NCBI GenBank assembly: GCA_029242765.1
Contig: JAQWTJ010000038.1
Coordinates: 91,467 to 155,466, forward strand
From: Flavobacteriales bacterium
GTDB lineage: Bacteria; Bacteroidota; Bacteroidia; Flavobacteriales_D; Sanyastnellaceae
Direction: 5' to 3'
Length of the DNA: 64,000 bases
How positions within the stretch are numbered: position 1 is the first letter of the stretch; every line of letters begins with the position of its first letter. The position numbers and the translations under genes were made by a program. Below, in pieces: positions 43,097-60,130 of the stretch. The notes below the pieces were generated by a model. That model searched no databases, was not told the origin of the DNA, and saw only the letters and a program-made list of their open reading frames with translations.

Positions 43097-43966
43097 ATGA
43101 AAGGAATCATACTCGCCGGCGGAAGCGGCACCCGACTCTGGCCCATCACCCAGGCGATCAGCAAGCAATTGATGCCTATCTACGACAAGCCGATGATTTA
43201 TTATCCGCTGTCAACGTTGATGGTCAGCGGGATTCGCGAGATTTTAATCATCTCCACTCCGCATGACTTGCCCGGTTTCCAGCGTCTTCTCGGCGATGGG
43301 TCACAGTGGGGCTGCTCTTTCAGTTACGTCGAACAAAAAGTTCCCAACGGGCTGGCCCAGGCTTTTGTGCTCGGGGCTGACTTCATCGGCGATGACAAGG
43401 TGGCCTTGGTGCTGGGCGACAACATTTTTTATGGCCAGGGCTTCGGCCGCATTTTGCGCAACAACACCGATGTGGAAGGCGCTATGGTCTACGCCTACCA
43501 CGTGGCTGACCCCGAACGATACGGCGTGGTGGAGTTCGGTGAAGATGACAAAGTGTTGAGTATTGAGGAGAAACCTGCTTCTCCCAAATCCAATTTTGCC
43601 GTTCCCGGACTTTATTTCTACGACAATCAAGTCGTGGAAATCGCACGAAATTTGAAGCCCTCGTCACGCGGCGAATATGAAATCACAGACATCAATCGCA
43701 CCTATTTGGAGCGCGACGCCCTTTACGTCAGCAAGATCGATCGCGGGACGGCTTGGCTCGATACGGGCACCTTCCCTTCTATGATGCAGGCCGCCCAATA
43801 TGTGCAGGTCATTGAGGAACGCCAAGGGCTCAAAATAGCCTGCCTCGAGGAGGTGGCCTGGCGCATGGGTTTCATCGACGCGGACCAGGCCCGAGCTCTG
43901 GCTCAGCCGCTGCTCAAAAGCGGATATGGCCAATACATTATGAGCCAACTCGACGCGCAATCCTAA
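43097..43966 (+). CDS. rfbA: Glucose-1-phosphate thymidylyltransferase
   Basis: [80 protein letters not shown]. Confidence 0.97.
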
Positions 43967-57547: not shown

Positions 57548-60130
57548 ATGCGCATTTTTATCTCCGGAGGGCAAGGCCAATTGGCCAATCGGCTCACGCA
57601 AGCCTCTGCGCAAGCTGGCTTTGAGTGCCTGGCCCCCCCGCGTGCTGATCTCGATATTTGCGACGCCGATGCTGTGCGCTTGGCTTTGCGCGACTTTGCG
57701 CCGACGGTTGTCATCAACGCGGCCGCCTACACCGCAGTCGATGCCGCTGAGGCGGACGCCGATGCTTGTTTTTCCGTCAACCGTGATGGCGCCTCTGCCG
57801 TAGCCGCCGCCTGTGCGGCTTTGGACATTGCGCTGATCCACATTTCCACGGACTATGTTTTTTCGGGCGCCTCAACGGCCGGTTTGGCCAGCGAACATCA
57901 ACCCTATACGACTGCGGAATTGCCCGATCCAATCGGCGTGTACGCCCAATCCAAACGCGCGGGTGAGCTGGCCGTTCTCGAGCAGCTGCCCTCGGCCTCC
58001 ATCGTTCGCACCGGCTGGCTCTACGATTTTTCGGGCCGCAACTTTTTTACCTCCATGTGCCGGCTGGCTGAGAGCCGCACCGTCCTTCCCGTGGTGGCCG
58101 ATCAGGTCGGCTGTCCCACCTACGCCGGTGTGTTCGCAGAGGACTTGATCCAATGGGCGGCTCTGTTGTTGAGCGCTCCTTCTAATGCAGCGGGCATCCA
58201 TCACTACGGTCACAGCGGCCAGGCCAGTTGGTTCATCTTTGCTTCGCGCATTCTCGCTCGGGAGCGCCCAGCCGTTGAAGTGCGCCCCATCTCCACGGCC
58301 GAATTCCCCACGGCTGCCCTCCGCCCAGCGTGGTCCAAACTTGACGAGCGGCCCTTCTTCGCGGCTTTGGACCGCTCAGCCATCTCATGGGAGGCGGCCC
58401 TTTCTCGCTGCTTTTCCGATTCCGAAATGGCTGCAGTAAGGGCCATTGCAAGCCGTTGGACCCGCCCGCCCTTTGACGAGGCCACTTCGGCTGAAGTCCG
58501 GGCGTTGCTGGCCTCTGAGAACAACGACCCACTCATCGAGCAGTTTCACACGGATCTGAAGTTCGGCACGGGCGGTATGCGCGGCCGCATGGGTGTGGGC
58601 ACCAATCGAGTCAATCGTTACACCATTGCCATGGCGACCCAAGGCCTGGCGGCATACTTGAAGGCGGCCGGCGCTGCCGAACATGAGATGCATGTGGCCA
58701 TAGCCTTTGACTGCCGTAACAATTCCCCTGAGTTTGCCCAAGTGGCAGCGGAAGTCTTGGCGGCCAATGGCATTACGGCGCACGTGTTTGAGTCACTTCG
58801 CCCTACCCCAGAGCTTTCATTTGCGGTAAGGCAGTTGGGCTGTGCTGCAGGCATTGTGATAACGGCCAGTCACAACCCAAAGGAATACAACGGATACAAG
58901 GTGTACTGGAGCGATGGTGCCCAAGTGGTGTCCCCCCACGACGATGGCATTATTGCCCAGGTTCGGGCCGTCGCCGACATCGACCAAGTGAACTTTGCGC
59001 CCGGATCACCGCTGATTCTTGCTATCCCCGCCTCCCTCGACCTCACCTACCGCCAGTTGCTTGTCGACGCTCGGCTTAACCCCGCTCTGATAGCCGAGGG
59101 CTCAGATCTGCCCATCGTCTTCTCTGCGCTGCACGGCGCGGGGAGTGTGTCCGTTCCTCCAGCTCTTGCGTCTTGTGGGTTTCGTGCGGTTGCTGAAGTG
59201 GCCGAGCAAGCCGATCCCGATGGCAATTTCTCCACCGTGACCAGCCCCAACCCCGAGGAGCCGGCTGCATTGAAAATGGCTATTGATCAAGCGATGCTAT
59301 CGGGGGCTCAAATTGTGCTGGCCACCGATCCGGACAGTGACCGCGTGGGCGTTGCAGCACCGGACTCCACCGGCACTTTCAAGCTCTTCAATGGCAATCA
59401 AATCGGCGCCCTTCTTGTCCACTATGTGCTCGAGCAACGCGACGCCCAAGGCCAGCTTCAGCCGGGCGACTTTGTGGCTCGCACCGTCGTCACCACGCGG
59501 TTAATCGACGCGATTGCGGCCGAATTCAAGGTGGATGTTGCGGTGACCCTGACGGGCTTCAAGTGGATTGCGGCGGCAATCACCGAGCGTGAGAAGGCTG
59601 GCTCGGGGCGGTATTTAGTGGGCGGCGAAGAGAGCTACGGCTATCTCGTGGGTGACGCGGTGCGTGACAAGGATGCCGCAGCCTCAGCGGCTATGATTTG
59701 CGAAATGGCCGACGTTGAGTTCCGCCAAGGCCGCACACTTTGGGACCGCCTTGACGATCTGCACGCCCGGCACGGTCACTACAAGGAGGCGCTGGTTTCA
59801 GTGGTGAAAGAGGGCCGCCACGGCGCCTCCGAAATCACGGCCTTGATGGACGGGTTCCGCTCGGATCCGCCTTCAACACTTGGCGACTCCCCTGTGGTGA
59901 AGGTGATCGATTTGTTGGACGCTTCAAGCGGTTTGCCCTTGAGCAATGTCATGCAGTTCGAAACGGCTGCGGGCGCACTGGTTACGGCCCGGCCTTCGGG
60001 CACTGAGCCGAAAATCAAATACTACTTTTCCGTTCGAAGTGCGGGCGGTCCGGACCTGGCTGACGGCGACATTGGCGCAAGTCTTGACGCTCAAATCGAT
60101 GCACTTCGCAATGAACTCGAGCGGCGCTGA
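57548..60130 (+). CDS. Fusion: dTDP-4-dehydrorhamnose reductase (RmlD) - phosphoglucomutase/phospho-sugar mutase
   Basis: N-half MRIFISGGQGQLANRL..VINAAAYTAVDAAE..HISTDYVFSG..YAQSKRAGE..DQVGCPTYAG (RmlD); C-half FGTGGMRGRMGVGTNRVNRYTIAMATQGLAAYL..ITASHNPKEYNGYKVYW..ATDPDSDRVGVA..GGEESYGYLVGD..ARPSGTEPKIKYYFS (PGM). No stop between domains. Confidence 0.95.
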   Translation: MRIFISGGQGQLANRLTQASAQAGFECLAPPRADLDICDADAVRLALRDFAPTVVINAAAYTAVDAAEADADACFSVNRDGASAVAAACAALDIALIHISTDYVFSGASTAGLASEHQPYTTAELPDPIGVYAQSKRAGELAVLEQLPSASIVRTGWLYDFSGRNFFTSMCRLAESRTVLPVVADQVGCPTYAGVFAEDLIQWAALLLSAPSNAAGIHHYGHSGQASWFIFASRILARERPAVEVRPISTAEFPTAALRPAWSKLDERPFFAALDRSAISWEAALSRCFSDSEMAAVRAIASRWTRPPFDEATSAEVRALLASENNDPLIEQFHTDLKFGTGGMRGRMGVGTNRVNRYTIAMATQGLAAYLKAAGAAEHEMHVAIAFDCRNNSPEFAQVAAEVLAANGITAHVFESLRPTPELSFAVRQLGCAAGIVITASHNPKEYNGYKVYWSDGAQVVSPHDDGIIAQVRAVADIDQVNFAPGSPLILAIPASLDLTYRQLLVDARLNPALIAEGSDLPIVFSALHGAGSVSVPPALASCGFRAVAEVAEQADPDGNFSTVTSPNPEEPAALKMAIDQAMLSGAQIVLATDPDSDRVGVAAPDSTGTFKLFNGNQIGALLVHYVLEQRDAQGQLQPGDFVARTVVTTRLIDAIAAEFKVDVAVTLTGFKWIAAAITEREKAGSGRYLVGGEESYGYLVGDAVRDKDAAASAAMICEMADVEFRQGRTLWDRLDDLHARHGHYKEALVSVVKEGRHGASEITALMDGFRSDPPSTLGDSPVVKVIDLLDASSGLPLSNVMQFETAAGALVTARPSGTEPKIKYYFSVRSAGGPDLADGDIGASLDAQIDALRNELERR

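Follow-up and report, generated by a model that had tools for sequence, protein, structure and literature searches.

A probable bifunctional RmlD–phosphohexomutase protein originating from the fusion of adjacent genes in a Flavobacteriales genome

Within the window—the whole stretch of 64,000 nucleotides of contig that we analysed—positions 57548 to 60130 of the forward strand appear to encode a genuine bifunctional protein, an RmlD joined to a phosphohexomutase, that would have originated by deletion between two adjacent genes and whose main effect would most likely be the production of the two enzymes in a 1:1 ratio rather than channelling, a reading to which we assign a probability of roughly 0.8. 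According to the mechanism that we propose, the N-terminal RmlD would reduce dTDP-4-dehydro-L-rhamnose to dTDP-L-rhamnose, while the C-terminal mutase would interconvert hexose 6- and 1-phosphates. The ancestral genes were probably co-translated or carried on one transcript, as suggested by their tight and often overlapping spacing; a short deletion would then have taken out the stop codon of rmlD together with the spacer between the two, so that the terminal helix of RmlD is now predicted to run without a break into the one that opens the mutase. The fusion would most likely fix at 1:1 the output of the cell's only RmlD and its only general phosphohexomutase. The reading frame, its domains and motifs, their conservation, the two origins, and the deletion are documented by the sequences, whereas the helix and the fold are predictions; both enzyme activities, and any benefit derived from their union, we infer.

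The region constitutes a single ATG-to-stop reading frame of 860 codons without internal stops, the terminal stop being included in the coordinates, and is flanked upstream by a MacB/FtsX-type permease gene on the same strand and downstream by a CvpA-like gene on the opposite one. The RmlD domain (dTDP-4-dehydrorhamnose reductase) occupies residues 1–291 (57548–58420, forward strand), which span gives a match of full RmlD length to the Pfam model RmlD_sub_bind (PF04321; E 2e-82) and passes the NCBIfam rmlD equivalog TIGR01214, with 269.4 bits against a cut-off of 224.05 over positions 1–283 of 285. The motifs GGxGQL (residues 7–12), STDYVF (100–105), YxxxK (132–136), and DQVGCPT (185–191) are all present, and alignment to the structures 1kbz and 3sc6 places the Thr, Tyr, and Lys of the catalytic triad—T104, Y128, and K132 in the Salmonella enzyme (PMC4832382)—at T101, Y132, and K136, within STDYVF and YAQSK. 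The phosphohexomutase part, of some 567 amino acids (58427–60127, forward strand), contains the three alpha/beta/alpha domains PGM_PMM_I (PF02878; residues 337–474), PGM_PMM_II (PF02879; 516–606), and PGM_PMM_III (PF02880; 615–738), all above the Pfam cut-offs and thus placing it in the PGM/PMM superfamily, together with the motif FGTGGMRG and the phosphoserine, metal, sugar-binding, and phosphate-binding loops: TASHNP (439–444), DPDSDR (594–599), GGEESYG (692–698), and RPSGTEPK (815–822), respectively. The catalytic motifs of both halves are kept, with minor substitutions, in all 13 of the fused proteins aligned. A previous sequence-only reading of this DNA had proposed a complete RmlD followed by a complete phospho-sugar mutase in one 860-codon frame, and the reading frame, the Pfam and TIGR01214 matches, and the motifs bear out that description.

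That reading had also called the second half a phosphoglucomutase, which designation holds with respect to the domains and motifs of the superfamily, but not at the level of the NCBIfam pgm equivalog (TIGR01132), for which the half scores 75.8 bits against a cut-off of 778. The GlmM cut-offs are likewise missed (TIGR03990, 153.8 of 439 bits; TIGR01455, 77 of 448) and no other NCBIfam equivalog cut-off is reached, so that the family leaves the exact substrate unsettled. From family and motifs together we infer a phosphoglucomutase, whose substrates would probably be Glc-6-P and Glc-1-P and which, we presume, may belong to the PGM2/PgcA-like group.

A PGM produces Glc-1-P, the substrate of RmlA, at which enzyme the dTDP-L-rhamnose pathway proper begins, so that the PGM acts upstream of the pathway, whereas RmlD forms the final dTDP-L-rhamnose. 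The host genome is a 2.22-Mb draft in 110 contigs, 97% complete, and in that 97% neither a second rmlD above the cut-off nor a second phosphohexomutase other than GlmM was found; the fusion is hence the only RmlD detected, and the only other phosphohexomutase is GlmM itself, encoded by a separate gene on contig C2. The sole non-GlmM phosphohexomutase found would have to cover all the needs of the cell for such an activity, and the notion that the mutase might be reserved for rhamnose supply therefore finds no support. The separate rmlA that had been noted at 43097–43966 (forward strand; glucose-1-phosphate thymidylyltransferase) was confirmed by TIGR01207, with 471 bits against a cut-off of 361, while rmlB is located on contig C95 and rmlC on contig C61, all three being scattered and away from the fusion. 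Besides RmlA, three further nucleotidyltransferases were detected, one resembling mannose-1-phosphate guanylyltransferase, one RmlA-long/GlmU-like, and one fused to a GHMP kinase, for a total of four. At C17:58106-58618 (locus L190), a 617-aa frame unites a nucleotidyltransferase (PF00483) with a GHMP/galactokinase-like sugar kinase (PF00288, PF08544, PF10509), which makes a second case of enzyme fusion within the sugar-nucleotide metabolism of this host. Neither GalU nor GlgC was identified in the 97%-complete genome, leaving RmlA as the one enzyme found to which the consumption of Glc-1-P can be assigned with confidence, which observation, the genome being incomplete, is no more than suggestive; PF01704 (UDPGP) had zero matches here and zero as well in every control genome, so that its lack of a match carries no weight. 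In consequence, the proposal that the fusion bridges the first and last steps of dTDP-L-rhamnose supply is plausible as regards a pathway link, with rmlB and rmlC present and RmlA as that consumer, but needs amendment in that the first step is that of RmlA and the PGM lies upstream.

With respect to class, alignment to 8ctr reveals that the RmlD half has Arg15 and Gly194 in the places of E1 and E2 of the E1-PLG-E/D2-E3 motif that defines the dimeric, Mg-dependent RmlD class (PMC4832382). Since E1 and E2 of this Salmonella dimerisation motif are missing, we place the half in the predicted monomeric class, an assignment that fits a C-terminal helix running on into another domain. GacA, a stand-alone RmlD of the monomeric class (PMC4832382), has the same fold and the same catalytic residues and likewise lacks E1 and E2, but ends after its last helix, whereas in the fusion that helix continues into the mutase. 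The AlphaFold2 model of the host protein (mean pLDDT 93.7, pTM 0.89) predicts at the junction one continuous helix over residues 281–303 (58388–58456, forward strand; block pLDDT 95–98), in which the helix that ends RmlD merges with the one that begins the mutase. One protein was modelled per lineage, and that from g21, a second genus of the family, displays the same arrangement (helix 277–300, pTM 0.88), with the provisos that AlphaFold2 may favour a continuous helix and that the two models are not fully independent, the alignment for the host having included g21 fused proteins while the alignment for g21 contained no fusions from g1, the genus of the host. In Foldseek comparisons the RmlD half matched 1vl0 and 3sc6 (target TM 0.89–0.94) and the mutase half the PGM/PMM structures 1tuo and 9du5 (target TM 0.81–0.86); none of the best 50 hits matched both halves.

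We searched 115 genomes of the family, in 84 of which the rmlD–mutase pair could be read. The pair was fused in 16 and separate in 68, the separate genes being invariably adjacent and on the same strand (68/68), and mostly overlapping or only a few bases apart. Within g1, fusions occurred in 2 of 18 genomes—the host and an independently assembled congener, G095, a second species of the genus (69% identical)—and the other 16 pairs were separate; in g21 all 14 sampled species carried the fusion; and the remaining 52 separate adjacent pairs came from other genera. The public record DDJR01000059.1 (UBA2619; locus L061) is also fused. One genome (G031) that the length of its open frame had suggested to be fused was rejected upon inspection of the sequence, an in-frame TAA lying between the genes. 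In 25 of the 68 separate pairs (L094–L184), rmlD and the mutase gene are in frame with each other and kept apart by no more than one or two stops, and such pairs are thus pre-set for fusion. Beyond the family, separate adjacent pairs were found in other Bacteroidota, for example in the Marinilabiliales and the Bacteroidales, which distribution indicates that the neighbourhood is old. At E <= 1e-172, a limit lenient enough to admit a comparably distant fusion, no complete uninterrupted fusion appeared either in the 395 genomes searched from the class or in the 398 from the phylum; in one genome of that wider search (G467) the pair lay in one frame with a single TAA in between.

A tree built from both halves with the junction left out grouped the host protein and that of G095 inside g1 and placed the g21 proteins beside g19, a genus with separate genes. 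Holding all the fused proteins as one clade lowered the log-likelihood by 137.5, and a single origin was accordingly rejected by the AU test (p-AU 1.4e-7); the tree needs two fusions, arising independently in g1 and g21. Between the conserved RPxxS of RmlD and the FGTGG of the mutase, the junction spans 219–243 nt in the fused genes versus 269–312 nt in the separate genes of the same or a sister genus, the fused genes being 26–93 bases shorter than their separate relatives in both lineages. This shortening indicates that both fusions involved deletion of the rmlD tail, the stop codon, and the spacer, and not a point change in the stop alone. Among g21 pairs of moderate divergence, the dN/dS of the junction was 0.06–0.27, similar to that of both domains, although the shortest window held too few codons for stable values; the junction in that genus thus evolves under purifying selection, with a dN/dS of about 0.1–0.2. 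Between the linkers of the host fusion and of that in G095 (L093) there is a difference of 7 residues, or some two turns of helix, which would leave the phase of the helix from one domain to the other unaltered but, as a single case, is possibly due to chance.

Whether the fusion itself was selected is a separate matter, and for the view that the loss of a stop codon by deletion, between genes that overlapped and were co-translated, was simply tolerated, with no benefit, we would offer close to even odds. That view is compatible with a bifunctional protein and differs only on the question of selection. The separate pairs of the family, by overlapping or lying a few bases apart, would be easily fused by short deletions, and most relatives have no fusion; yet the fusion has persisted in all the sampled g21 species, where the frame has been preserved and the junction is under purifying selection. 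This persistence and selection show that the protein is used, not that the fusion was favoured, and a useful fusion cannot be told by sequence from a neutral one that later became locked in.

An in-frame ATG at codon 294 (58427–58429, forward strand) lies where the separate congeners start the mutase, and had raised the possibility that a free mutase is made alongside the 860-aa fusion. The codon does exist in frame, but two fused relatives (G095 and G104) have no counterpart and the g21 proteins mostly none, so that production of a free mutase does not generally accompany the fusion. No Shine–Dalgarno match precedes this ATG, a weak argument in that there is scarcely one at the rmlD start, a strong site being found at neither. 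Two products are therefore unlikely, and the ATG is more probably a vestige of the codon at which the ancestral mutase gene began.

A distinctly unlikely explanation in our estimation is that the fusion is adaptive in linking the supply of Glc-1-P with the final stage of dTDP-L-rhamnose synthesis, whether because the shared helix transmits an allosteric signal or because RmlA, RmlB, and RmlC are recruited into a complex. The fusion of the same pair twice independently and in the same order, the continuous helix with a high pTM in both models, suggestive of a fixed orientation of the domains, and the standing of RmlA as the only confidently assigned Glc-1-P consumer would all accord with such coupling. 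Against it, the RmlD and mutase reactions share no intermediate, which is why direct channelling is not expected and why the earlier suggestion that the fusion couples or regulates flux went unsupported; moreover, rmlA, rmlB, and rmlC are located elsewhere, the congeners manage without the fusion, and genes so closely packed are expected to fuse repeatedly anyway. The more specific idea that the ligand state of RmlD (NADPH, dTDP-L-rhamnose) might control the mutase through a rigid helix, and that this control was the reason for both fusions, we hold to be very improbable; if true, it would constitute an end-to-start feedback on Glc-1-P supply within a single polypeptide. Finally, a stop codon lost or a frame shifted at the junction by sequencing or assembly error, the kind of error that the previous reading had itself named as a ground for refutation and to which the 110-contig draft and the stops at that position in the 16 congener pairs might have pointed, has a negligible probability, since the same frame is open in G095, whose linker is different and shorter, the fused gene departs from its unfused relatives by the loss of tens of bases and not by a single-base change, and the second fusion that arose in g21 has the same architecture in 14 species.

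The reading that we prefer, that of a genuine bifunctional protein formed by deletion, has a close counterpart in the adjacent rmlD and mutase genes of the Bacteroidota, with the same two proteins in the same order and on the same strand, often overlapping, but as two genes and two products. The RmlC–RmlD fusion of Prymnesium parvum and other haptophytes, which was shown to be active (PMC6556577), likewise joins RmlD to a second enzyme supplying dTDP-L-rhamnose in one chain, though it unites consecutive steps in eukaryotic algae, whereas the bacterial fusion adds a phosphohexomutase from upstream of the pathway. Other bacterial metabolic gene fusions similarly join functionally related genes, and the main text of the survey that describes them mentions neither rhamnose nor phosphoglucomutase (PMC4921024). 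The literature that we searched yielded no description of an RmlD–phosphohexomutase fusion, and domain-architecture databases such as InterPro may list such proteins. The fusion is, then, a modest variation on known enzymes, a bacterial architecture that we did not find described in that literature and that offers a clear before-and-after among close relatives. In the manner of a Rosetta stone, it also connects dTDP-L-rhamnose synthesis with a Bacteroidota phosphohexomutase whose substrate is unsettled. With the same ancient gene pair fused twice by deletion, and with one shared helix in both models, the family provides a natural test of whether metabolic gene fusion is driven by coupling or is a by-product of close gene packing.
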